Part shown: positions 2,750 through 22,500 of the stretch, in pieces
How the letters are laid out: each line of letters begins with the position of its first letter
How positions within the stretch are numbered: position 1 is the stretch's first letter
Virus record (IMG/VR): IMGVR_UViG_3300032516_000217
Location: 1-22,500 of that record
Direction: 5' to 3' (one strand)
DNA from: a virus
Length of the DNA stretch: 22,500 bases
Position numbers and translations under genes: made by a program
The notes under the pieces: generated by a model
What the model was told of the DNA's origin: nothing
The model's input: the letters and a program-made list of their open reading frames with translations, nothing else
Databases searched by the model: none

Positions 2750-4273
2750 ATGGATCTTCACGAAGCAATTCGGCAGGAGATGCTCCTGCTTGAGCAAAGA
2801 CGTGACTCTCTTTGTGAGAAGCCGGCCATTAAGCCGTATCTCGAAGAGGTCAGTTCGTACATTCAAAAGACCCAGAACCGTGAAATGACGGTTATGGAGA
2901 AGCGAAACATCGCCCAGTGCCTCGATAACGCCATTATGGAAGGCGGCATTCGTCAGGGACAGCGATTGTTCGAGAACACGACCACGGAAGACCACATTAG
3001 TTTCCTGGGCATTCAGCTGCCCGTGATTAGTGCGTTGCTTCCGTCACTGACCCTGAACGACGTTGCCACAGTGCAAGCGCTTGATCGGCGTATCGGTGCG
3101 GTATTCTTCATGGACTTCCTTTCCGGGTCCGCGAAGGGTGAGGTTGGACTTGGTGAGACGCTGTTCAGCTCGAAGAGCGGTCCAAACGCCAAGGGTGGTG
3201 CCCGTCGGTACGCGATGGCTGCTGCGGAGCGTGAGGAAGTTGGTTACGGCGATACGACGTTCACGTCCGTGACTGGAATCAACCCAGGTTTGATTCTGCG
3301 TGATAACATCGTCGTTGAAGCTACGGATAGCTATGGTAACGTGTGGGAGATCGGTGTTTGCTCCTCGGCTGGTGTGATTACCACGAGCCCGAACGCTGGT
3401 TCCGGCGTTACCTGCGTTGGTTCCATCGCCACGTCTGGTGTGTATACCATCGCGGTCGGTGGTCTGCTTGACAGCACGACCAAGGTTACGATTACGTACT
3501 ACTATCAGTACGATTTGCCCGTTGACAATCAGGGTAACAAGACGGGCGTTCCTGAGGTCGACCTGACGGTCACCCAGGAAACGATCACCGCGGTTGACTT
3601 CCCGATTCGGTCGAAGTACAGCATCGGTGCCCAGATTGATCTGCAGAAGGCACACGGCTTGAGCCTTGAGGACGAGCTTGTGAAGGTGCTCGGTGGCGCT
3701 GTGAAGTGGGCCATCGATCAGAGAGGTTTGGACATGATGATCGCCGCATCCACGGCGACCGGCGCTGCTACTCAGTGCACCACGTGGGATGCTCACATCC
3801 ACAGCGGCCAAGCCTGGCTGTGGCATAAGTACGAGTTCCTGGATCGTCTTAACGAAGGTAGCAACAACATCTTCGATAAGACCAAGCGTGGTGTTGCTAA
3901 TTTCATGATTTGCGGCAACAATGTTGCCCGAGTTGTGAGGCAGCTTACACAAGGTGGGGATTTCAAGGCTTCCGCCGCTCTTGGCAAGCAGATTCCCACA
4001 GGTCCGCTGAATATCGGTAACGTGTCGAGCGTCAATAACATGGTTGTGATTCAGAACCCGTTCATGGATTCGAACACGTACACGCTCGGCTTTAAGGGTG
4101 ACAGCTACCTGTACGCAAGCTTCATCTATGCTCCGTACATCCCGCTGTTCGCGACCCCGACGCTGATCACCTCCGACCTGATCGCTCAGAAGGGCTTCCT
4201 TTCGAGCGCTGGGTTCAAAGTGATCAACCCTGGTCTGTTCTGTGCTGGTGGAATTTCCAACCTCGGAGTCTAA
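2750..4273 (+). CDS. Major capsid protein (T4 gp23-like)
   Basis: A 507-residue protein close in length to T4 gp23 (521). ATG 2750 is chosen because TAGGAGGA lies just upstream and overlaps the previous stop; the frame extends further upstream but without a ribosome site. Features typical of the family are a helical N-terminal region (1-75), a core entry around 84-120 with VATVQALDRRIGAVFFMDF, a Gly/Val/Thr-rich inserted beta region (about 180-280), the segment around 300-330 with KYSIGAQIDLQKAHGL, and a C-terminal P-domain-like stretch with GFKGDSYLYAS and YAPYIPL. IME at residues 62-64 followed by GG fits a gp21-type maturation cleavage and is almost exactly where T4 gp23 is cut (after residue 65). 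Codon use is more GC-rich than in neighbouring accessory genes, as is common for very highly expressed capsid genes. Confidence 0.9.
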   Translation: MDLHEAIRQEMLLLEQRRDSLCEKPAIKPYLEEVSSYIQKTQNREMTVMEKRNIAQCLDNAIMEGGIRQGQRLFENTTTEDHISFLGIQLPVISALLPSLTLNDVATVQALDRRIGAVFFMDFLSGSAKGEVGLGETLFSSKSGPNAKGGARRYAMAAAEREEVGYGDTTFTSVTGINPGLILRDNIVVEATDSYGNVWEIGVCSSAGVITTSPNAGSGVTCVGSIATSGVYTIAVGGLLDSTTKVTITYYYQYDLPVDNQGNKTGVPEVDLTVTQETITAVDFPIRSKYSIGAQIDLQKAHGLSLEDELVKVLGGAVKWAIDQRGLDMMIAASTATGAATQCTTWDAHIHSGQAWLWHKYEFLDRLNEGSNNIFDKTKRGVANFMICGNNVARVVRQLTQGGDFKASAALGKQIPTGPLNIGNVSSVNNMVVIQNPFMDSNTYTLGFKGDSYLYASFIYAPYIPLFATPTLITSDLIAQKGFLSSAGFKVINPGLFCAGGISNLGV

Positions 4274-4306
4274 ACCAGTAAGTGCTGCCCGCCAAGGATG
4301 GTATGA

Positions 4307-4340
4307 CGCCGGGGAGGCAATCCTCCCCGGCGTTTTTGTT
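4307..4340 (+). terminator. Strong intrinsic terminator after the capsid gene
   Basis: A perfect 11-bp stem (CGCCGGGGAGG at 4307-4317 pairing with CCTCCCCGGCG at 4322-4332), a 4-nt CAAT loop, then TTTTTGTT. It lies 33 bases past the capsid stop and is the only strong rho-independent terminator I could see in the window. It would isolate capsid transcription from the genes downstream. Confidence 0.9.
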
Positions 4341-4354
4341 ATTTGGGGCACTTC

Positions 4355-4651
4355 ATGATAATCCAGAAAATCAAATCGCTGAAAGATCAAACCCTCGACA
4401 CAACGGCCGATCGTAAGTCGTTGGTTGTGGGTGAAGTCATTAACATGAATTTCCTCAGTCAGGCCCAGCTCATGTCGTTTGTTGATATTGGCGTACTTGA
4501 GTTAGCCGATCAGAACGAGCCGGACAAAAAGGTCATTCCGGTGATTGGGGAACGAAAGTTTGTTGATGACGTGACAAAGAGAGAGATAGAAATACCGGTG
4601 GTATTTAACCCGGGATTCAAGTTGGAAGAACACTTGAGGAGCGTGGTATAA
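4355..4651 (+). CDS. Small protein of unknown function (98 aa)
   Basis: Start ATG 4355 follows a TTTGGGGC stretch, about 6 bases upstream, which would serve as a weak ribosome site; a TTG at 4343 in the same frame is an alternative. The protein is soluble, mixed alpha/beta by inspection, with no Cys and no membrane segment. It begins with a Lys-rich amphipathic segment and has a central VIPVIGERKFVDD stretch. It lies between the capsid terminator and the HNH gene, so transcription must come from readthrough or a promoter I cannot define. I do not recognise the family; a minor head or head-tail joining role is possible from position only. Confidence 0.6.
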   Translation: MIIQKIKSLKDQTLDTTADRKSLVVGEVINMNFLSQAQLMSFVDIGVLELADQNEPDKKVIPVIGERKFVDDVTKREIEIPVVFNPGFKLEEHLRSVV

Positions 4652-4657
4652 TTGGGT

Positions 4658-5590
4658 ATGGAAACCAAAATTTGTACAAAATGTGGCAATGAAAAACCGG
4701 CAACGGAAGAGAACTTCTACAAACATAAAAATGGTTTACATGGATTGGCATCGTGGTGTAAAGAATGCTTCCAGTTGTACCGGAATGATCATGCTGATGA
4801 TAGGAATAGAAAATCCTTGGGTCGAAAGCTTCTCGTTCTTTCCAATTATGGTGGTTCATGTTCCGTTTGTGGTATCACCGACCCGGCCTTCTTAACTATT
4901 GACCATATCAACAATGACGGTTCCGACCAAAAGTTTTCCGATCCAAGTTCTCGACATTTATATGATTGGTTGATTCGCAATAATTTCCCGCAAGGTTTCC
5001 AAGCTCTATGCTGGAACCATAATCACCTGAAGTTTTTTGAGAATAGGCGATTAAGGAATAATAGGTCTGCTGAAAAATATGTTAGATCGAATGATAAAAT
5101 CAAGTGTTTCGTCATTGGCCATTATGGTGTCCAGTGTGTCTGCTGTGGTGAGACTAATATTAATATTCTAACCATTGATCATATTAATGGTCATGGAAAT
5201 AAACACAGAATTCAGACCGGTTGTGGAACTGGTGTTAAGTTTTATCGTTGGTTACGTGATAATAATTTTCCATCAGAATTCAGAGTTTTGTGTTGTAATT
5301 GTAATGATGGAAGACGTGTAAACGGCGGTGTTTGTCCTCATGAATTAAGGAGATCATATGGCAAGAGACTACACCAAGTATCTGACTTGGTTACGTCAAG
5401 AGTTCCGTCCATTAACTCTGGCTACCCCAGAGGGTACCCTCAAGCAAATCGTGGAGAACAGCATAAGGTACTGGAACACAAACAGTGCCTACAAGTTGGG
5501 CACAATGGTCAATTATGCTGCTCTAACCAAGAGGGTTCAACTAAATGCCCAGTTCAAAACGGTCGTGGATTAAATGATGGTCCACGTTAA
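4658..5590 (+). CDS. Free-standing double-HNH homing endonuclease
   Basis: The chain opens with a zinc-binding pair of CxxC units (Cys6/9 and Cys34/37), a common start in phage HNH nucleases, then carries two tandem copies of the same HNH-like module. Module 1 (about residues 60-125) has CSVCG, LTIDHIN (Asp82-His83) and an LCWNHN end; module 2 (about 155-228) has CVCCG, LTIDHIN (Asp174-His175) and LCCNCN. In this family the DH pair and the final Asn supply the metal-dependent nuclease site. The natural end is probably near NGGVCPH (226-228): the remnant at 18890-19063 stops a few residues after the same motif. Here no stop follows, and the last 80 or so residues are an out-of-frame reading of exon 1 of the next gene, ending 20 bases inside intron 1. 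GAGGAG at 4636-4641 is 10 bases before an in-frame TTG at 4652, an alternative start. The AT-rich composition suggests transfer. Confidence 0.85.
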   Translation: METKICTKCGNEKPATEENFYKHKNGLHGLASWCKECFQLYRNDHADDRNRKSLGRKLLVLSNYGGSCSVCGITDPAFLTIDHINNDGSDQKFSDPSSRHLYDWLIRNNFPQGFQALCWNHNHLKFFENRRLRNNRSAEKYVRSNDKIKCFVIGHYGVQCVCCGETNINILTIDHINGHGNKHRIQTGCGTGVKFYRWLRDNNFPSEFRVLCCNCNDGRRVNGGVCPHELRRSYGKRLHQVSDLVTSRVPSINSGYPRGYPQANRGEQHKVLEHKQCLQVGHNGQLCCSNQEGSTKCPVQNGRGLNDGPR

Positions 5591-6820
5591 AGCCGCTCAA
5601 TTCGGTGAACTTCTTATAAATATAAGAAAATACCGAGCCAGACTCCGATTTTTCGGCAGCAATGGTGTAACGACTACGCCCCGTAAAGTGATTTACGGGA
5701 CTACGGCGGCCGACCAAATGGTCGATGGTATAGTCTGAACCGTGCAGTGATGTACGGAGATGAGCCGAAAGACTCGTCCGCCCACCATATGGTGGGTCAT
5801 GAAAGTAACAGTTTGATCTACCCTGATAAAACGACCACGTGGATTAGTAATATGGTTCACGATAAAGCCGCTCAATTCGGTGAACTTCTTAGAACGCTAA
5901 GAAAATACCGAGCCAGATTGTTGAGAAAAATCAACAACAATGGTGTAACGACTACGTTTCTTGGGGCGACCCAAGAGGCTACGGCGGCCGACCAAACGGT
6001 CGATGGTATAGTCTGGACTGCACGGCGACGTGCAGAGGTGAGTCGAAAGTCTCGCCCGCCCATTATGGTAATGGGTCATAAAGTAACAGACAGCTGGAAC
6101 GACCATCAATGTGGTGGCTTTGCCGGGCGACCGGCATCGAAGAATTCCGTAAACTGCGGGAACATCCGAGGATCCCAAACTACTCGCCGTACGGCAGTAA
6201 CAATGTTTGGGTGCGGACAATCCGCAACCAAGCCCTTCGCGGCCACCGCGTGAGGGAAGGCTCAACGAGCATAATCGGAACGTCTCACTGAGACGGTGGT
6301 GTGCTCTGAACCATACAGCGATGTATGGAGTTCGGCAGAAATGACCGAACCGCCAGAAACGACTGGTGGTAACAGATTGCCATTGTGGACCCTTATGGGC
6401 ATTTCGGTGATGGACAACGTAACCGGTGACCTGATCATGATGTCGGAAGCCTTCCGTAACTATCGGGTTTATGTTGGGGTAGACTTCCAATGGCAGTTTG
6501 ATAAGTCAGACGTGCCCGGTGTTGGTGGGTATCTTTATTGTATCAACGTACCGTCCGGCACCCAGAAGCTATTCGTAATGGGGACAAAGAGGATCCTTGA
6601 GGAAGAGGACGTAAAGGTTGAGCAGGTCCTCGACTGGCTTTATCGATATAGTAAGGCTCAGTTGAAGCAGATTGAGGGTAACACCCTTCGCAAGAGCGCC
6701 ATCATCAACGTCGCTAACGACGGTCAAGCACTCGTGGATGAGGGCAAGGAAGAAATGAAAGACCTGCAAGATCGGTTGTCAAAAGATAGTAGATGGGTGC
6801 TGCTCGCGAAACGATGTTAG
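5358..6820 (+). CDS. Virion structural protein, split by three group I introns (231 aa after splicing)
   Basis: Exons are 5358-5570, 5816-5844, 6094-6106 and 6380-6820. AAGGAG at 5347-5352 sets the ATG start. Unspliced, translation stops at TAA immediately after codon 71 (GAT). Joined, the reading frame runs without a break: exon 1 ends TVVD in phase 0, exon 2 gives IYPDKTTTW plus AT, exon 3 supplies C to complete Ile and then WNDH, and exon 4 opens PLWTLMGISV. The product is a soluble alpha/beta protein with a helical C-terminus (LKQIEGNTLR, DGQALVDEGKEEM) of a kind I associate with unnamed head-neck structural proteins of T4-like and jumbo phages. I cannot assign a precise role. Group I introns usually invade conserved parts of essential genes, which fits. 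The exon borders are inferred from P1 pairing, frame and a constant 3' end pattern (TAACAGNNNG in all three introns), not from RNA data. Confidence 0.8.
5571..5815 (+). ncRNA. Group I intron 1 (IA-like, 245 nt)
   Basis: P1: 5' exon CGTGGAT (5564-5570) pairs with GTCCACG (5580-5586), with the expected U.G at the splice site. P3: GCCGCT 5592-5597 with GGCGGC 5705-5710. P4: TTCGGT 5601-5606 with ACCGAG 5632-5637. P5: TTCTTA 5611-5616 with TAAGAA 5623-5628. P6a: CCGA with TCGG (5645-5656). P7: GACTA 5672-5676 with TAGTC 5731-5735. An 8-bp hairpin with GTGA loop (5680-5699) lies between P7 and P3', as in subgroup IA. P8: CGACC/GGTCG (5711-5724). P9: 5740-5757 with GTGA loop, followed by two more hairpins including CCCACCATATGGTGGG. 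The terminal G is placed at 5815. No ORF is inside, so it would need a nuclease supplied in trans to home. Confidence 0.9.
5845..6093 (+). ncRNA. Group I intron 2 (IA-like, 249 nt), paralogue of intron 1
   Basis: The core is nearly identical to intron 1 (AAAGCCGCTCAATTCGGTGA, AATACCGAGCC, GTGTAACGACTACG, CGATGGTATAGTCTG) while the peripheral stems differ in sequence but keep pairing: P5 TTCTTAG/CTAAGAA, P6 TTGTTGA/TCAACAA, the P7-P3' hairpin TCTTGGG/CCCAAGA with GCGA loop, P9 CTGCACG/CGTGCAG with GCGA loop, P9.1 GGTGAG/CTCGCC, and CCCATTA/TAATGGG. P1 pairs exon CGTGGAT (5838-5844) with GTTCACG (5855-5861). The 3' end fits G6093 (TAACAGACAG). The intron is 83 codons long and has no stop in the exon frame. 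Confidence 0.9.
6107..6379 (+). ncRNA. Group I intron 3 (273 nt), different lineage from introns 1 and 2
   Basis: P1: exon ACCAT (6102-6106) with GTGGT (6111-6115), terminal U.G. P2: GCCGG/CCGGC (6122-6135) with GCGA loop. P3: TTCCG 6145-6149 with CGGAA 6276-6280. P4 TGCGG with CCGCA, and P5 CCCAAAC with GTTTGGG, enclosing CCGTACGG. P6a CGCGG/CCGCG. P7: GAGCA 6267-6271 with TGCTC 6302-6306. P8: GTCTC/GAGAC (6282-6294). P9: CCATACA/TGTATGG with GCGA loop (6311-6328), then TTCGG/CCGAA and CCGCC/GGTGG hairpins. The Q-like element AATCCGCAACCAAGCCC is close to that of T4-type introns. The 3' end TAACAGATTG (G6379) matches the pattern of introns 1 and 2. An in-frame stop (TGA 6251-6253) blocks ribosomes in the P6 region. 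Confidence 0.87.
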
Positions 6821-7204: not shown

Positions 7205-8623
7205 ATGGAAGTCCAGTTCAACGAGCTGATTGAGGCCACCCTTTCTGACATTCACCGAAAACATCGATCCGTGAAGATGCTGTTTCCCACGTTCGACGAT
7301 CGGGTAAAGAACGTTCAACTCATGGGTGGTATTCGTCTTAAAGAGGTAGACGACGATAACTGGCACTTCTCAGTACACTCTGGCACCAAGAAGGATGTGT
7401 GGTACGACTGCACACTTCATTTCAAGAACATTCAAGAAGTCCTCGAACACTATGTAAAAGATCGTCGTCTGTGGGTAGAAGATCGATCAAGGGTGGATCT
7501 TAAGAAGCTTGCTGCGATATTTGTCGAGAAGGTTGACGTCCAAGTGTTCTGCTCATGCCCTGCATTTCTTTATTTTGGCCCCGCCTATATTCTTGGTCGG
7601 CCCAAGTACGACGCCAAATACACGGACCCAGAGCATCGGCCACCGAACAAGCGAAATCCAAAGCAATATGGGGCTACATGCAAGCATTTCACGAACGTCT
7701 TGAAGGCCCTGCCGTTTTATACCGGCACCATCGCGAAGTGGTTGAGGGACTTCTATGCTAGAGACATCGCTGGTTACGAAAAGGAAGCGATGCGGGAATT
7801 TGGCTGGCTCCGTAAGGCAGCCACCGTTCTTGGCAAGAAGAAGGCAAGGGTTGGGAAAAAGCCGGTGAAGGGTCCGGAGAAGAAACCGGAGCCAACTAAG
7901 ACGGAAGCAGAGGAAGAGGGTCAGACGCAACCGGAGACAGAGGGAAATACACCCCCTGAAACACAGGAGAATGAGCGAATCACCGAGTCAAAAGACGAGC
8001 AGTACAAATGGTTCATCAACAGAACCAACAAGCACGTCAGTCTGGTGAAAAATGCTGCCAAGAAGATTGTTGGTGCTTATCCTGAATTTGAAGATCTTCT
8101 AAAACAGGTGGAGGTTCACGACGCTTCAAAATTAGAAGAGCCGGAGAAAACGCCGTACGTATCAATTACATGGAGACACAAATTAGAAAACGAACGTGGG
8201 GAATTTGACCCCATAAATAATAAGGGATATCAAACCCCCGGTTTGTTGGCGAAGGAAGACGAGAATACTGCCACTTTGCATCATATCACAACCAATTCTC
8301 ATCATCCTGAGTACCATTTGAAGGATAAACAGGACGCGAACATAAACAGTAAAGATCGTGACAAATCAAATAGCTGTGTCGATGCTACAGCTATGCCTGA
8401 TCTTGATATTGCTGAAATGGTGGCAGATTGGCAGGCAATGTCAGAGGAACTGGGAAAAAATACTTCAAGGCAATGGTTCAATAAACAGAAGGACGTTAGG
8501 TGGCACTTCTCAGCCAAACAGGAACAGTTAATCGACGGACTGTTGAGGGTCTTCGAGGCTGTGGTTGATGAAAGTACTTCGATTCGTCTTACCAGCCGTC
8601 TGTTGGAGAAATACAGACTGTGA
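7205..8623 (+). CDS. SWIM-like zinc motif plus DUF5662-like (HD-type) protein, 472 aa
   Basis: The N-terminal half (1-200) contains Cys116-Ser-Cys118 and Cys159-Lys-His161, the CxC...CxH pattern of SWIM zinc fingers with an unusually long spacer. A Lys/Pro then Glu/Thr-rich linker covers about 205-260. The C-terminal half resembles DUF5662: His277 (NKHVSLV), His305-Asp306 (VHDASK), His366-His367 (NSHHPEY) and Asp408 (ADWQAM), a set of conserved His/Asp that looks like an HD-type metal site. No enzyme activity is established for that family. The chain ends in SRLLEKYRL, a tail shared with the proteins ending at 19995 and 20403. GAGGG at 7188-7192 is the only ribosome site near the ATG. The product could be a packaged or virion-associated protein. 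Confidence 0.75.
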   Translation: MEVQFNELIEATLSDIHRKHRSVKMLFPTFDDRVKNVQLMGGIRLKEVDDDNWHFSVHSGTKKDVWYDCTLHFKNIQEVLEHYVKDRRLWVEDRSRVDLKKLAAIFVEKVDVQVFCSCPAFLYFGPAYILGRPKYDAKYTDPEHRPPNKRNPKQYGATCKHFTNVLKALPFYTGTIAKWLRDFYARDIAGYEKEAMREFGWLRKAATVLGKKKARVGKKPVKGPEKKPEPTKTEAEEEGQTQPETEGNTPPETQENERITESKDEQYKWFINRTNKHVSLVKNAAKKIVGAYPEFEDLLKQVEVHDASKLEEPEKTPYVSITWRHKLENERGEFDPINNKGYQTPGLLAKEDENTATLHHITTNSHHPEYHLKDKQDANINSKDRDKSNSCVDATAMPDLDIAEMVADWQAMSEELGKNTSRQWFNKQKDVRWHFSAKQEQLIDGLLRVFEAVVDESTSIRLTSRLLEKYRL

Positions 8624-9414
8624 ACTTTCACGACTTAATGACTAGGATTTTCGATTCAACCAGCCGTATCAATGAGGATGCTGCTCCCGCCCCCGTTGGC
8701 CCTTCAATTGGTCCCAACGTGGGTGGTGCAACGACCGAGAATGATATCCAAGCTTTGCCTGTTCACCTTGGTGCCAGCACCGCAAGACGAAAGAAGAAAA
8801 AAGGTAAGATGATAAAGGGTCTGGTAAAAGAAGCTGTTGATAAGGATCTTGAGCGTCTTCGTAAGGAGCTCAAGCTCGAACTCATTAAGATGTTCAATCA
8901 TGACGAGTTCGTGACCACCGTGCAGGTGTGGAACGCTTTCAAGTCCGCATTCGGTGCCGGCCAGTCACGAACTCAAAGGGTGGCCGTCACTTGCGAGCGC
9001 CAGCAAAAGGACGCTCAGAAGTTGTATGGTGATCTGCTTCGTGAGCATGGAGACGACAAGGGTAGTATCGAGATGATTATCTCTGCCATTCAGGAGAAGC
9101 GACCACTTGGTCAGTTCCCGGTGATGAGAAAGTATGACAACTTGTTTGGTAATCGTACCAGTGTCGAGTTTCAGGGGATCAAGATCGTGTTTGAAGCCAC
9201 GGTTGACTTCATTTATGACCCCACACAAACATTGTATATTGATGACCTGGAACTTCTTGATCGTATCGAGGAAGAATTTGGGTCTATAATTAAGAGAAGT
9301 AAGAATGTATTGTATCCAGTCGGCGGCAAATTTCGTCATGACTTCTTCAATCAGTTGAAGTCGATGATGTCTGATAATGTTGAGGAGCCAAAAGATGAAA
9401 AACAAAGCGACTAA
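8620..9414 (+). CDS. Unknown protein with Leu-rich leader (264 aa)
   Basis: It starts at GTG 8620, overlapping the preceding stop (GTGA), so it is probably translationally coupled. The first 19 residues (FHDLMTRIFDSTSRINE) form an amphipathic leader ending in INE, like other proteins in this cluster. An Ala/Pro/Gly-rich linker follows, then a very basic helix (RRKKKKGKMIKG, about 56-68) and a helical domain. The second half (about 165-235) is alpha/beta with FQGIKIVFEATVDFIYD. The family is not recognised. A head-internal protein processed after Glu19 is an inference. Confidence 0.65.
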   Translation: MNFHDLMTRIFDSTSRINEDAAPAPVGPSIGPNVGGATTENDIQALPVHLGASTARRKKKKGKMIKGLVKEAVDKDLERLRKELKLELIKMFNHDEFVTTVQVWNAFKSAFGAGQSRTQRVAVTCERQQKDAQKLYGDLLREHGDDKGSIEMIISAIQEKRPLGQFPVMRKYDNLFGNRTSVEFQGIKIVFEATVDFIYDPTQTLYIDDLELLDRIEEEFGSIIKRSKNVLYPVGGKFRHDFFNQLKSMMSDNVEEPKDEKQSD

Positions 9415-14634: not shown

Positions 14635-14833
14635 TACATTCCAAAAACTTGGTATCAAGCTGCTTGCCACGAAGCTTCTACACGACTACCGAGAATGCAA
14701 GGCTTCGGTTCCTGAGACCGAGCTTGAACACTTTTCACAGAAGTGGTTCGGTGTATGGGTTGATGCGGACGATGACTATAAGGAATCAGTATTCATGGAG
14801 TTTATGGGGGTGCTCAGTGATCGGTCTACTTGA
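14627..14833 (+). CDS. Small unknown protein (68 aa)
   Basis: GTG 14627 is the likely start, since CGGAGG at 14615-14620 is 6 bases upstream. It overlaps the preceding gene by 8 bases and the following one by 17. The product is helical and acidic, with FSQKWFGVWVDADDDYKES in the middle. The family is not recognised. Confidence 0.55.
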   Translation: MNSTFQKLGIKLLATKLLHDYRECKASVPETELEHFSQKWFGVWVDADDDYKESVFMEFMGVLSDRST

Positions 14834-16217
14834 ACGACTATTGAAGATATATGAGGGATGGAAAGATGTTTACCATCAGTTCGTAGACTCCGGTAAAGTT
14901 TCAGCTGCCGTGTTTACAAAATTCCGAACTGAGGACCCTTCTGATACCAAGAAGTACCTTCAATGGATGTGCAAACAATATATTTCAAATCCCGGTCGTC
15001 AGACCCATATTGTTGATGTGGTAAAAATGTTTGATCAACAAGTTCAACGAAATCTGATAAAGGGTGATGAATCAGATATTAACAAGTATGATTTGGAGGG
15101 GGCGGACAAAGTTGCAAAGAAACAATCACAAGAAAAAACCCATGGTGAAGTAAAACGAGAACAAAAGTCCGAATCCATAATTGTTGATGAGACCGATGAC
15201 TACCTGATTGTGGTTCCCGAGTCCCATTCCGCTTCCTGTTTCTATGGAGCCAATACCAAGTGGTGTACTTCGGGAAAAACAGCGGAGCATTGGGATTCGT
15301 ATTGGAAAGAAAATATCAAAATCTACATTATTATAGATAAAAAGAAAAACAAGAAGTACGCCATAGCCGTAGGCCCAAACGGTGCGATGGAAGCCTTTGA
15401 TGAAAAGGATCGTAAAATTTCCCTTCCATCAATCGAGAAGCAAATGGGGTTGAAGTTACCCGATATATTTAAGCCATTAACCAAACAGGCAACAACTGGT
15501 AGAAAACAGAAACAAATAGAGGAAATTTTGTCCAAATCTACCAAGAACCCCGATGGTACGTATTCTACTGATGGAGATGTTAATTTTTCTTCTATGGGTC
15601 TGAAAAAACTGCCGGTAAAATTCAAATATGTTGGTGGGGATTTCGACTGCTATGACAATGAACTTACATCCCTGAATGGTGCCCCATCGAAGGTTGGTGG
15701 TAATTTCTACTGTAATCACAATCAACTTACGTCCCTGAATGGTGCCCCATCGGAGGTTGGTGGTGATTTCGACTGTGAATACAATCAACTTGCATCTTTG
15801 GAGGGTGCCCCATCGGGGGTTGATGGTAATTTCTACTGTTATAACAATCGACTCGCATCTTTGGAGGGTGCCCCATCGGGGGTTGATGGTAATTTCTACT
15901 GTTATAACAATCGACTCGCATCTCTGGAGGGTGCCCCATCGGAGGTTGGTGGTAGTTTCAAATGCAACGACAATCAACTTACATCCCTGAATGGTGCCCC
16001 ATCGGAGGTTGGTGGTAATTTCGACTGCTATGACAATGAACTTACGTCCCTGAATGGTGCCCCATCGGAGGTTGGTGGTGATTTCGACTGCAGCAACAAT
16101 CAACTTACGTCCCTGAATGGTGCCCCATCGGAGGTTGGTGGTGATTTCGACTGTGAATACAATCAACTCCCTCGTGATGAACTTATGAAAACAGTCGATA
16201 GGAGTTATTTAAAGTGA
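14817..16217 (+). CDS. Leucine-rich repeat protein with conserved TKWCTS domain (466 aa)
   Basis: GTG 14817, after TGGGGG (14805-14810), is preferred as start; the frame is open further upstream but there it only shadows the preceding gene. The chain opens with a leader (IGLLERLLKIYEG), then a helical region. Residues about 125-190 form a domain with YLIVVPESHSASCFYG, TKWCTS (Lys148-Trp149-Cys150) and IKIYIIIDK, which I have seen preceding LRR arrays in other large-phage proteins but cannot name. From residue 273 on there are eight full 21-residue repeats of the form GGxFxCxxNxLTSLxGAPSxV plus a ninth partial one, then a short cap. LRR arrays normally form a curved binding surface, so a host- or partner-binding role is plausible. 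The stop overlaps the next GTG. Confidence 0.75.
   Translation: MIGLLERLLKIYEGWKDVYHQFVDSGKVSAAVFTKFRTEDPSDTKKYLQWMCKQYISNPGRQTHIVDVVKMFDQQVQRNLIKGDESDINKYDLEGADKVAKKQSQEKTHGEVKREQKSESIIVDETDDYLIVVPESHSASCFYGANTKWCTSGKTAEHWDSYWKENIKIYIIIDKKKNKKYAIAVGPNGAMEAFDEKDRKISLPSIEKQMGLKLPDIFKPLTKQATTGRKQKQIEEILSKSTKNPDGTYSTDGDVNFSSMGLKKLPVKFKYVGGDFDCYDNELTSLNGAPSKVGGNFYCNHNQLTSLNGAPSEVGGDFDCEYNQLASLEGAPSGVDGNFYCYNNRLASLEGAPSGVDGNFYCYNNRLASLEGAPSEVGGSFKCNDNQLTSLNGAPSEVGGNFDCYDNELTSLNGAPSEVGGDFDCSNNQLTSLNGAPSEVGGDFDCEYNQLPRDELMKTVDRSYLK
15633..16169 (+). repeat. 63-bp tandem repeats coding leucine-rich repeats
   Basis: Units begin at 15633, 15696, 15759, 15822, 15885, 15948, 16011 and 16074, with a partial ninth at 16137. 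The conserved DNA core is GGTGCCCCATCGGAGGTTGG. The fourth and fifth units differ at only two positions, so array length is evolving by recent duplication. The variable codons are mostly those following the Cys and around the first Asn. Confidence 0.93.
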
Positions 16218-17257: not shown

Positions 17258-18886
17258 ATGTCGATTCACCTTTCCCCCGGCGTCTATTCCCAAGAAAAAG
17301 ACCTGTCGGATATTGTTACTCGTATTGCGACGGCAAGCTCTGCCCTGGTGGGATATTCAGTCAAAGGCAGTGTCGATGAAATCAAGCTGATTACCAGTGA
17401 TCAGCAGTTCATAGACGAGTACGGTGAACCCGACCCGGATTCCGGACATTTCTTTCACTATGCTGCTTTAGCCTTTTTGGGTAAGGGCAGTACGCTTTAT
17501 TGTCTGCGGGTTGTGAACGGTGCTCTGTACGGTGGGGTTGATATTCAGTACAGCACGTCCGGTGATAGTAATGTTGCGTTTGCAACTGGTAAATCTAGTA
17601 GAACCTTCGCTCCTGCTTCTGGTCAGATAACGGAAACTGTTCTACAGATCGTCGGGGTCAACCCGGGTGTGTGGAATAACAAGATTGGTATTGAAATTTC
17701 CGATATTAAAGACGGTTCTGACCCAATCGTTACTGACCAGTACACGTTTAAAATTAGCGTGTTTTCCCAGGATGCGGATGGTAACTGGGTTCAGGTTGAA
17801 ACGTGGAAGGTGTCCCGTAAGCGGAAGTACGATGGGTACGGTAAGCAGTTGTACATGGTCGATAAGATCAACGGTGTCAGTAAGTACATTTATGTGCTCG
17901 ATAGTGCTATGACCGACACTGTATTGCCAAAGGTTCAGGTCAACCAGTTGGACTTTGCGGCTGGTTCAGATGGTAGTCCCATTTCAGCCACTCATCTGGT
18001 TACTGGGTGGGATGAGTTCATCAATCCAGACAGAATTGACGTTCGAATTTTAATCAACGGTGGCGAAACGGCAATATCTGTTCAAACGGAAATGATGACA
18101 ATTGCCGAAGCCAGACGCGACTGTGTAGCCATCCTAGATATCCCGTGGTCTTCACTGTCCTCGGTCGGCGGAATGACAGCGTTCAGGAACACTATCTTTG
18201 ATTCGAGCTACTGTGCGTTGTACGCTGGTTGGGGCCAGATTTACGACAAGTACAACGACATCGTGATCGACGTTCCTGCTTCTGGCCACATTGCTGCTCA
18301 GTATGCATATAACGACTACGCTGGCAAAGCGTGGACAGCCCCGGCTGGTGATAATCGTGGTGTTCTTGACCTGCTCAGCATCACCGGTCCAACTGGTAAG
18401 TTGGTCTTTACCGAGGGCGAACGTGATACACTGTACGTGGACCAAATCAACCCGCTGCAAATTTTCAGTGGTTCTTCGCCTAGAATTTGGGGCCAGAAGA
18501 CGTTGCAGAAGAAAGGGTCGGCCACCGATCGTATTAACGTTCGTCGTCTGTTGATTGTCATTGAGAAGTCGATGGCCATCTCGCTCCGGCAGTTCGTCTT
18601 CGAGCCGAACGATGAGATCACCAGATTTCGAATCGAAGCCTTGCTCAACTCATACCTTGGTGACTTGTCTGCCCAGGGAGCATTTCAGACTGAGGGTGAG
18701 GATCAAGGTTTCCACGTAGTGTGCGACGGTACAAATAACACCGCAGTTGTAATAGACGACAATGAGTTGCGGGTCGACGTGTTCGTGAAGCCGTCGCGTG
18801 CTGCAGAATACATTCGCCTGCAGACTATCGTGACAGCAACCGGTGCAAGTTTTGAAGAGTTGATCGCAAGAGGCGTAGCGTTCTGA
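17258..18886 (+). CDS. Contractile tail sheath protein (T4 gp18-like), 542 aa
   Basis: A strong TAGGAGGT site at 17246-17252 precedes the ATG. The N-terminus HLSPGVYSQEKDLS is the usual sheath entry strand. Residues about 120-290 are the variable inserted region. The C-terminal domain has WGQKTL, then the RINVRRLLIVIEKS segment, FVFEPNDEITR, a GDLSAQGAF turn, VCDGTNNT, and DVFVKPSRAAEYI, all in the order found in myovirus sheaths. The length is below T4 gp18 (659) but normal for the family. It polymerises around the tube and contracts at infection. It is followed by an HNH remnant before the tube gene. Confidence 0.93.
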   Translation: MSIHLSPGVYSQEKDLSDIVTRIATASSALVGYSVKGSVDEIKLITSDQQFIDEYGEPDPDSGHFFHYAALAFLGKGSTLYCLRVVNGALYGGVDIQYSTSGDSNVAFATGKSSRTFAPASGQITETVLQIVGVNPGVWNNKIGIEISDIKDGSDPIVTDQYTFKISVFSQDADGNWVQVETWKVSRKRKYDGYGKQLYMVDKINGVSKYIYVLDSAMTDTVLPKVQVNQLDFAAGSDGSPISATHLVTGWDEFINPDRIDVRILINGGETAISVQTEMMTIAEARRDCVAILDIPWSSLSSVGGMTAFRNTIFDSSYCALYAGWGQIYDKYNDIVIDVPASGHIAAQYAYNDYAGKAWTAPAGDNRGVLDLLSITGPTGKLVFTEGERDTLYVDQINPLQIFSGSSPRIWGQKTLQKKGSATDRINVRRLLIVIEKSMAISLRQFVFEPNDEITRFRIEALLNSYLGDLSAQGAFQTEGEDQGFHVVCDGTNNTAVVIDDNELRVDVFVKPSRAAEYIRLQTIVTATGASFEELIARGVAF

Positions 18887-18889
18887 TGA

Positions 18890-19063
18890 TTGCACGGCTG
18901 TGGGGCAAGAATAAGAATGGAAACCGGTTTTGGTACGAATTTGTACCGTTGGCTTCGTAATTGCGATTTTCTACCCGGATTTCAGGTGCTGTGTTTTAAT
19001 TGTAACTGTGGTAAGCAAGCAAACGGCGGATTCTGTCCGCATAAAGGGGTGTGCCATGAGTAG
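18890..19063 (+). pseudogene. Remnant of an HNH endonuclease (C-terminal module only)
   Basis: In the same frame as the sheath gene, after two stops, 57 codons read LHGCG..., GFGTNLYRWLRN, GFQVLCFNCN and NGGFCPHKG before TAG. This matches the end of the second module of the HNH gene at 4658 (GCGTGVKFYRWLRD, FRVLCCNCN, NGGVCPH). The zinc finger, first module and the catalytic DHIN element are gone, so it cannot be active. Its end still provides the AAAGGGG ribosome site for the tube gene. Confidence 0.85.
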
Positions 19064-20403: not shown

Positions 20404-21026
20404 TGCAACTCCTAAAGTTTGATATTCCTGGGGTTCTTGGTAACCTGACCACGAGGACATGGGCCCTTCAAAGGTCGTACAATTGGCAATTAATGATGCC
20501 GTTTACGATCGAAGGTGTGCTTGGTGTCTTCGTGTCGCAGTATTGTCAGGATGTCAAATTCGGTGATTACAGTGTTAGTGAACTAACTTCGGTCCGGTAT
20601 GGTGCGTTCCAGCGGTTTTATGCTGGAATCGATCAGATTGATACGGTTTCGTTGCAGTTCATCATGCCGGTTGATAATAGCGTATACGACTTCTTCCGAT
20701 TTTGGAGGGAGCTTGTAAGAAGTCCGAAGGGCCATTATCAAGTTAAGAGGAAGTACGCCAAGAATATTTATGTCATGACGTACGATCGATCTGGTATTCA
20801 GTCTGGTCAGTATCTTTGTCATGGTTGCTTCCCTAAGACGATTCCACCGATTACTTTGTCTTATGGTGAGGACTCGGTACTCAAGTGGGGTCTTGACTTG
20901 AGCGTGGACTACATCGAAACATTCAGTCTAATTGGTAGCATTGAACAAAGTGTAGTTAAGGCAATTGGTAGCATTCCTGGGGTGGCTAAGCTTGGGCAGG
21001 GAGTCCAGGGCCTACTGGGAGGATAG
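20403..21026 (+). CDS. Tail tube-like / baseplate-tube junction protein (207 aa)
   Basis: The TAATG overlap with the preceding gene sets the start. Its features fit the tube-protein fold shared by T4 gp19, gp48 and gp54: NWQLMMPFTIEG, VRYGAFQRFYAGID, LQFIMPVDNSVYDFFRFW, a central YDRSG turn, then CFPKTIPPITLSYGEDSVLKWGLDLSVDY. The Gly/Val-rich tail (about 180-207) would be flexible or membrane-seeking. Coming after sheath and tube and before the gp26-like gene, it is likely to start tube assembly on the baseplate. Which T4 protein it matches cannot be settled by eye. Confidence 0.62.
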   Translation: MQLLKFDIPGVLGNLTTRTWALQRSYNWQLMMPFTIEGVLGVFVSQYCQDVKFGDYSVSELTSVRYGAFQRFYAGIDQIDTVSLQFIMPVDNSVYDFFRFWRELVRSPKGHYQVKRKYAKNIYVMTYDRSGIQSGQYLCHGCFPKTIPPITLSYGEDSVLKWGLDLSVDYIETFSLIGSIEQSVVKAIGSIPGVAKLGQGVQGLLGG

Positions 21027-21047
21027 TCACTTGTTCCGGAGAAAGAA

Positions 21048-21782
21048 ATGTCAGAAATTGAGAATTTCCATGCCATATCGTTTCCGAGTCGTTGCCTTCC
21101 GTATGACGGTGTGAAACCCGAAGACATAACGGCAAGGTCGTATCTCGGAAGGGACGAGATATACCTAGCAGAGATCACACCAGACAACCTTGATCAGAAG
21201 TTTCTACAGGTCATGAAGGGTGCCATTCACGGTATTGACCCTGAGCAAATGACGCTTGGTGACCGTGAATACTTTATCTTGTGGGAGTACATTAGGTCGT
21301 ATTCAGACCACCTAGGTCTTGAACTGGTATGTCTTAAATGTGGTAAACAGATTGAGATACAGGTAGACTTGCGTGAATTGAACGTAATCGAGTTGCCTGA
21401 AAATTTCAAACAGCCGTACCCAGTACCACTACCGAGCGGTATTGACGTTCAACTTCGGTTGCTTACGATTAAAGATGAAATTGATGCCAACGAATTCGCT
21501 CAGAAGAGTAACGAGGCGTTAATTTTCCGGTGTGCCAGGTCAGTGGTTGAGGCCGGCAGCATCGTTGATAAGATGGAAAGACTAAAGTCCCTCCCCGCAA
21601 GTGACGTTGCTACAATTCGAGCCTTTCATGAGCAGTTCTATCATGGGCCGAATATGAATACAAAGTTCAAATGCCCGAAGTGTGGTGCGGAGGACGACGT
21701 TGAAGTCCCCTTTCGATTTGAGTTCATTTTTCCGAGGGGTGAGGCCCTTACAAGAGCTTTTGGAAAGAGAATTCGACCTTAA
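21048..21782 (+). CDS. T4 gp26-like baseplate protein with two CxxC pairs (244 aa)
   Basis: A CCGGAG site precedes the ATG. The central region, with QMTLGDREYFILWEYIRSYS, matches the T4 baseplate family (PF12322 type, gp26/gp51 group). Two zinc-binding pairs, Cys95/Cys98 (CLKCG) and Cys209/Cys212 (CPKCG), flank a helical region and would form one bipartite zinc site. In T4 these proteins assist assembly of the baseplate hub. The C-terminal 44 bases overlap a small ORF in the +1 frame. Confidence 0.75.
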   Translation: MSEIENFHAISFPSRCLPYDGVKPEDITARSYLGRDEIYLAEITPDNLDQKFLQVMKGAIHGIDPEQMTLGDREYFILWEYIRSYSDHLGLELVCLKCGKQIEIQVDLRELNVIELPENFKQPYPVPLPSGIDVQLRLLTIKDEIDANEFAQKSNEALIFRCARSVVEAGSIVDKMERLKSLPASDVATIRAFHEQFYHGPNMNTKFKCPKCGAEDDVEVPFRFEFIFPRGEALTRAFGKRIRP

Positions 21783-21897
21783 GTTTCATGGTCGTTTCTC
21801 TATCGAAGAAATTCGAGCCATGGACGTACGAAAGATAGATTGGTTTCACTCAAGGCTAAGTAAACAGTTAAGCGACACGGAAGATGCGAATAAGTAA
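21739..21897 (+). CDS. Small overlapping tail-assembly-type protein (about 52 aa)
   Basis: The frame is open from 21682, but the protein-like part is from about GTG 21739: RPLQELLEREFDLKFHGRFSIEEIRAM and then VRKIDWFHSRLSKQL. It overlaps the gp26-like gene in the +1 frame. Such a small acidic/helical ORF after a chaperone gene and before a long tail gene resembles tail-assembly chaperone arrangements. Whether it starts at GTG, at TTG 21760, or is made by frameshifting is not visible. Confidence 0.55.
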   Translation: MRPLQELLEREFDLKFHGRFSIEEIRAMDVRKIDWFHSRLSKQLSDTEDANK

Positions 21898-22500
21898 AGA
21901 CACACCGAGAGCAGACGACCGTTGGTATGGTGTCAGTGTTAACAATGACACTATCCTACACCAGATTTACGCTAGTTTCAGAAATGAGTATATACCGTTT
22001 CTTACCGAACTTTCTAAGGCATACCAAGTTGGAGAAGTAGCTAGTGACATTGATGATACCGTGTTAATGGTTCATGATGTCATGAAAAAAATTGTCGAAA
22101 TAATTACAATTGGAAAAGTCGGTAAAAAGGACGCGTCCATTCTGTATCAGTCTATTAATGATATAGAGGCCAATAAGTCCAGATTGATGAATAGAATAAC
22201 TGAGGATGAAGAGTTTCGGTCCAAGGTTGAAGAAATATACGAAACGACTGGAATATCAGCTAAAGACCTAGGCATAACGAAAGAAATGTTAAAGGCTGGG
22301 GTCAAGCAAGTAAAGGGTAAACAGGTTGACAACGAATTTCAGTCCGGACTTGAACAAAAGCACCCGAAGTCGTCTGGTAAACTGAAGTCTGTAGTAGAAG
22401 GGATGAAAGTTGCGGGTCTTGGTCCGTTTGCTCCCGTTCTTGATACTGTTGGTGACGTTGAGAATTGGTTACGATCCAAGCTAATAAAACCAAAGGAAAA
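21884..22500 (+). CDS. N-terminal part of a tail protein running off the window (at least 205 aa)
   Basis: ATG 21884 overlaps the preceding stop by 14 bases, and the frame stays open to the last base. The visible part is helical: ILHQIYASFRNEYIPFLTEL, VMKKIVEIITIGK, a Lys/Glu-rich middle, then VAGLGPFAPVLDTVGDVENW. It lacks Cys. Position right after chaperone-like genes would suit a tape measure or hub protein, which are long and helical. This is inference; the family is not recognised. Confidence 0.7.
   Translation, partial: MRISKDTPRADDRWYGVSVNNDTILHQIYASFRNEYIPFLTELSKAYQVGEVASDIDDTVLMVHDVMKKIVEIITIGKVGKKDASILYQSINDIEANKSRLMNRITEDEEFRSKVEEIYETTGISAKDLGITKEMLKAGVKQVKGKQVDNEFQSGLEQKHPKSSGKLKSVVEGMKVAGLGPFAPVLDTVGDVENWLRSKLIKPKE

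Follow-up and report, generated by a model that had tools for sequence, protein, structure and literature searches.

The window analysed was the whole of a 22.5 kb IMG/VR virus record, and the features of the locus described below lie on its plus strand. Pfam searches identified a T4-like structural cluster comprising a prohead protease, a Gp23 capsid protein, a tail sheath and a baseplate protein. A small gene, here termed X (4343-4651, stop codon 4649-4651), occupies the interval between the capsid gene and an HNH gene, and the following gene, N, starts at ATG 5358 as placed by homologue comparison. The two genes overlap as TAATG in the aligned relative L002. The stretch holding the HNH gene, which by comparison with L002 is an insert of 4652-5357 between the stop of X and the start of N, is therefore a clean, exact junction insertion. 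The free-standing double-HNH nuclease frame runs uninterrupted for 310 codons from ATG 4658 to a TAA at 5588-5590, inside intron 1 of gene N; TTG at 4652 is an alternative start. The preliminary description had placed an HNH gene (4658-5590) directly upstream of a gene whose introns hold no nuclease gene, and this layout was confirmed. No matching record was found in the 'phages' collection for either the locus DNA or gene N. Elsewhere in the window, a frame at 14649-16217 is rich in near-identical repeats of the type GAPSEVGGDFDCxxNQLTSLN.

Gene N was divided by homologue alignment into exon 1 (5358-5570, 71 codons), exon 2 (5816-5844, 29 nt), exon 3 (6094-6106, 13 nt) and exon 4 (6380-6820). 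The group I introns between them, located with Rfam and homologues, are intron 1 (5571-5815, 245 nt), its near-duplicate intron 2 (5845-6093, 249 nt) and intron 3 (6107-6379, 273 nt), none of them long enough for a nuclease gene. Splice sites were fixed by uninterrupted homologues in the L002 alignment, and the joined frame encodes 231 amino acids, 86% identical to L002. A splice model with introns ending at AACAG was rejected, as it gave a 239-residue protein where the homologues give 231. Matches to Rfam RF00028 were obtained at 5561-5757 (43.9 bits), 5774-6035 (47.4 bits) and 6097-6328 (25.7 bits), all below the gathering score of 50. All three 5′ exons end in U and all three introns in G, the terminal G following AACAG and two or three further bases in each case. 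P1 pairings read from the sequence were CGUGGAU/GUCCACG, CGUGGAU/GUUCACG and ACCAU/GUGGU for introns 1 to 3, respectively. RNAalifold applied to introns 1 and 2 together with intron B of L004 predicted 75 pairs, 20 of which carry pair-keeping changes on both sides. With a P3-P9 core structure, a 5′ U with P1 and a terminal G, and with RF00028 scores below gathering, the three fit the group I class and are predicted to self-splice.

Introns 1 and 2 are identical at 193 of 241 aligned bases and have the exon heptamer CGTGGAT in common, a trace expected of intragenic transposition (e.g. reverse splicing) or copying. The three introns, all lacking open reading frames of their own, are packed at 5558-6380 around only 42 nt of internal exon; splicing that skips exon 2 is a predicted possibility. 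Intron 2 amounts to 83 codons open in the host frame and, if retained, would give an in-frame insert; such a product was considered and the open frame judged probably incidental. Gene N possibly encodes a gp13-like neck protein, its profile matching T4 gp13 weakly (E = 0.013). It is carried by 19 relatives, in none of which it contains an intron. In one of these comparisons an intron was suspected from the length of gene N (L112), and the additional stretch (8450-8688) proved to be an in-frame coding insert resembling an added domain.

The HNH frame matched phrog_2255 'HNH endonuclease' (PHROGs, E = 4.9e-24), and no Pfam family was matched at E ≤ 0.001. Two HNH modules were recognised in the sequence, both showing CxxC, IDH and a C-x-N type end, the Zn-CxxC, IDH and C-x-N residues conserved in HNH enzymes. 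Profile match and conserved residues together place the protein among the phrog_2255 phage endonucleases, a family from which it is set apart by an 82-codon tail over the next gene. The gene lies outside the introns, between genes, at a site that is empty in relatives, as is characteristic of a free-standing homing endonuclease gene. Relatives of the HNH protein were present in 35 of 50,697 phage records, 22 of the 35 being Arthrobacter phages. Searching with this protein gave a family survey of 66 loci, in eight of which (L009 and its copy L019, L015, L020, L057, L058, L063 and L064) the HNH gene lies within a group I intron; intron detection in the survey used an intron-core model for all 66 loci and an Rfam gathering scan for 38, and weak core-model matches in L021 (20 bits) and L035 (17 bits) were left uncounted. 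The nearest analogue of the window layout is L040 (3755-4484), where a gene is interrupted close to its 3′ end by an intron that encodes no nuclease, and a free-standing member of the same HNH family comes directly after this intron. The bootstrap of a tree of 82 HNH modules is not fully settled; in this tree the window gene groups with that of L005 and two copies from record G001 (support 97/87), all free-standing. The wider set of eight around it contained no intron-borne members, and the eight intron-borne HNH modules were placed elsewhere.

Members of this family stand at differing junctions: in L083 the HNH gene separates N from the gene that follows, and in L002 it precedes the counterpart of window gene 9844. 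G001 carries HNH in four places according to a search of the whole record with the HNH protein. The contig of L005 is 96% identical to window positions 20599-22500 and holds its own HNH gene at 3992-4690, and a second HNH gene, of which the window itself retains a decayed C-terminal part, can be read from the sequence where the sheath and tube genes meet (18884-19045). The L005 copy and the decayed copy together suggest a lineage of junction-hopping HNH cassettes in the phage group of the window. Gene N borders two of the 23 gene junctions in the window gene list, so that one or two cassettes adjoining it are not rare and need no special cause. In several free-standing members, among them L005, L006 and the decayed copy, the next gene starts within some 20 bases of the CPH motif and is preceded by a Shine-Dalgarno-like sequence. 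In the decayed copy, AAGGGG after CPH may be a ribosome-binding site for the tube gene.

In the window gene CPH ends at 5341, and the frame continues for 82 codons to the TAA at 5588-5590. This tail crosses exon 1 and 20 nt of intron 1 and ends just past P1, in which 5564-5570 are paired with 5580-5586. The preliminary description had reported that the usual stop after CPH is lost and that the frame reads past the intron 1 splice site. The second point was borne out; the first holds in that the stop is absent and an 82-codon run-on follows, and is to be qualified in that a stop at this place is usual and not universal. It was found no more than 12 codons after CPH (or CRH) in 34 of 51 distinct relatives, and the extension was at least 82 codons in 5 of the 51. 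AAGGAG (5347-5352), directly after CPH, is a candidate Shine-Dalgarno-like sequence for gene N. Because this sequence and the start of gene N lie near CPH, as in other free-standing members, the tail looks like an accidental run-on from a cassette whose end lies just ahead of gene N. It is conceivable, though on balance doubtful, that the stop was removed by a one-base frameshift or an assembly error: an off-frame stop (TAA in GAATTAAGG) stands right after CPH and the 34 early-stopping relatives agree with such an event, whereas the 5 with long extensions speak against it. Such a change would bear on nothing but the overlap and would leave the cassette reading favoured below intact.

A functional role for the overlap, by which translation of the HNH tail over P1 would delay splicing or the nested start of gene N would couple expression, is very unlikely. 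It would suit the position of the HNH stop just past P1 and the finding that, of 20,000 synonymous resamplings of exon 1, only 115 (0.6%) leave the HNH-tail frame open, odds that are unusual but were examined after the fact. Such openness was also rare in the other genes of the record (5 of 3741 windows). Codon conservation was nevertheless not raised: at residues conserved with L002 the same codon was kept at 30 of 64 positions in exon 1 and 58 of 120 in exon 4, so the overlap shows no extra constraint. The corresponding frame was closed in all three relatives examined (L002, L003 and L004), and the unspliced frame of gene N itself also reaches the splice site, stopping at 5571-5573. For this last reason the earlier statement that ribosomes on the HNH message would cross P1, correct as a description of the sequence, adds little.

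Seven introns were found in relatives, all in the capsid gene: two in G003, one in G005, three in G013 and one in G017. The intron regions are L004 3591-5012, L084 4877-5178, L103 4250-6301 and L108 5376-6477, some at recurring sites. Intron A of L004 and the intron of L108 encode TnsA-like proteins (PF08722, E = 8.2e-13 and 9.3e-13, respectively). The third intron of L103 encodes a protein like Phage_endo_I (1.7e-6, just under the cut-off), and the first retains a short remnant of a TnsA-like C-terminus. No HNH gene was found in any of the seven. TnsA-like and endonuclease-I proteins are PD-(D/E)XK enzymes. The kin of the window introns use a nuclease class other than HNH, either TnsA-like or endonuclease-I-like. 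Nuclease genes are intact, remnant or absent among the capsid-gene introns, which thus make up a series of nuclease gain and loss. A match to the core-reading C-terminus of the L004 nuclease was obtained for the core of window intron 1 (E = 0.067) and for that of window intron 2 (E = 0.004).

Co-occurrence of HNH genes and introns was assessed in the whole records of the window and the 19 relatives with gene N (n = 20). Records were screened for the one with the HNH protein and for the other with R1, a model of the intron core derived from 11 introns (window and loci); Rfam searches of the loci and a test for splits in the capsid gene supplemented the screen. The split test covered 19 loci, with L101 lacking a capsid gene and L099, L104 and L105 holding part of one. 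HNH was present in three records (the window, G001 and G004) and introns in five (the window, G003, G005, G013 and G017). No introns were detected in the whole records of G001 and G004, and no HNH in those of the four other intron-bearing relatives. The closest relative carried several HNH copies and no intron was found in it. The co-occurrence looked for under collaborative or trans homing was thus seen in 1 of 20 records, the window itself (Fisher p = 1), in a set where the relatives' introns lie in another gene and absences are weak because the records are fragments. Introns in gene N are known from the window only, which makes one case for this gene. The number of introns counted varies with the method used. 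Rfam, run on whole records, did not detect window introns 1 and 2, and the third intron of L103 was recognised solely from the split of the capsid gene and by reading the sequence, so introns of relatives outside the capsid gene and gene N may have escaped detection. A first intron pattern gave no matches in the loci and two others matched only the record of L004. Signs of nuclease resistance were also sought by alignment of the window with L002; identity was 0.58-0.85 across the gene N exons and lower, 0.52-0.68, inside gene X, an equivocal pattern with no divergence peak in the exons at the intron sites.

The HNH gene is probably an ordinary free-standing homing-nuclease cassette and the introns elements of separate history, carried by it through co-conversion at most. 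The cassette would have entered precisely where the X stop meets the N start, like its sisters at other tight junctions. With it would have come the putative Shine-Dalgarno-like sequence that serves gene N and closely follows the conserved CPH end. Its spread probably depends on cleavage of genomes lacking the HNH gene, close to the place where the cassette itself inserts. Having no in-frame stop after CPH, its frame would run on to a chance stop in intron 1. The introns are ORF-less members of a group that resides in the capsid gene of relatives, sometimes with a nuclease gene of another class. Passive carriage of introns by the HNH cassette may occur, since a cut can be repaired with copying of the DNA beside it, and intron 1 begins only 213 nt from where the cassette inserted. 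The adjacency most likely reflects independent arrivals, on the evidence of related phages. Against this account stand the rarely open alternative frame of exon 1, a hint of constraint or of luck, the ability of the HNH family to partner introns (8 of 66 loci), and the free-standing HNH gene beside a nuclease-less intron in L040.

The preliminary description had proposed collaborative or trans homing, in which the HNH nuclease would cut intronless gene N at the intron sites and spread HNH and introns together. Its layout component is real, an HNH gene adjoining introns without nuclease genes, with a like arrangement in L040 and published precedents in passages of PMC2988022 and PMC10448857. 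The mechanism itself found no support and is unlikely: the two elements are not associated in the 20 records, the closest HNH relatives are free-standing in records without detected introns, the kin of the introns use another nuclease class, and the exons carry no divergence peak at the intron sites. The finding of HNH without detected introns in two records, and of introns without detected HNH in four, was what the description had named as counting against its proposal; it does so without being fully decisive, given that the records are fragmentary and that introns in the relatives interrupt a different gene, that of the capsid. Trans homing keeps a small probability, as gene N has introns only in the window, and is not favoured. 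In a turnover of nucleases, an alternative raised in passages of PMC10448857, the introns would have lost a gene of the TnsA-like type and a newly arrived HNH would have taken over their mobility. Intact, remnant and absent nuclease genes do occur among introns of the same group, and the match of the two window cores to the L004 nuclease C-terminus points the same way; that match, however, reflects a common ribozyme core and gives no sign that introns 1 and 2 ever held a gene, and the takeover itself is conjectural, so this course of events is very unlikely. It is likewise very unlikely that one double-HNH enzyme mobilises the three-intron cluster by cutting intronless gene N near the twin CGTGGAT sites while its tail over P1 ties nuclease expression to splicing of the gene that it targets. 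If the arrivals were independent, the locus shows that two kinds of mobile element easily become neighbours in a crowded phage structural operon, and cautions against reading partnership from layout alone. If instead the HNH nuclease mobilises the introns, the locus would add to the natural examples of collaborative homing, here with a single outside nuclease moving three introns.

The layout is of a known kind, given the precedents of mobE, ICP1, T3-like phages and a cyanophage. As described in passages of PMC2988022, T4 mobE is a free-standing HNH gene at the nrdA/nrdB junction that mobilises the nrdB intron, with its defunct I-TevIII, in trans. The window resembles it in having a free-standing HNH gene just upstream of an intron-bearing gene whose introns hold no working nuclease, and differs in that MobE activity on nrdB is reported there whereas cleavage by the window HNH is putative. 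The window host gene is also structural, and its intron kin have another nuclease class. Parts of PMC10448857 describe a nuclease gene beside a terminase exon in ICP1 and collaborative homing in T3-like phages and a cyanophage. The nuclease gene lies beside the intron in T3/T7-like phages, in cyanophage psbA (F-CphI) and in the ICP1 terminase, as it does in the window (passages of PMC10448857; PMC6083498); those systems, unlike the window, use other nuclease families, and cutting at the intron insertion site is their defining claim. Of greater interest than the HNH gene are the tightly packed introns, which with their near-duplicate pair, on one exon heptamer, and exons of 29 and 13 nt lend themselves well to tests of intron transposition and exon skipping. 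Reverse splicing of T4 introns, and ribosomes acting as chaperones for them, are treated in passages of PMC3984707, and exon skipping together with a small exon is described for Bastillevirinae in parts of PMC11878797. Also close is orf142 of phage Twort, which like gene N has several group I introns in one structural gene, three in number, and shows exon skipping (as cited in parts of PMC11878797); gene N differs in the shortness of its two internal exons and in that its splicing is predicted.
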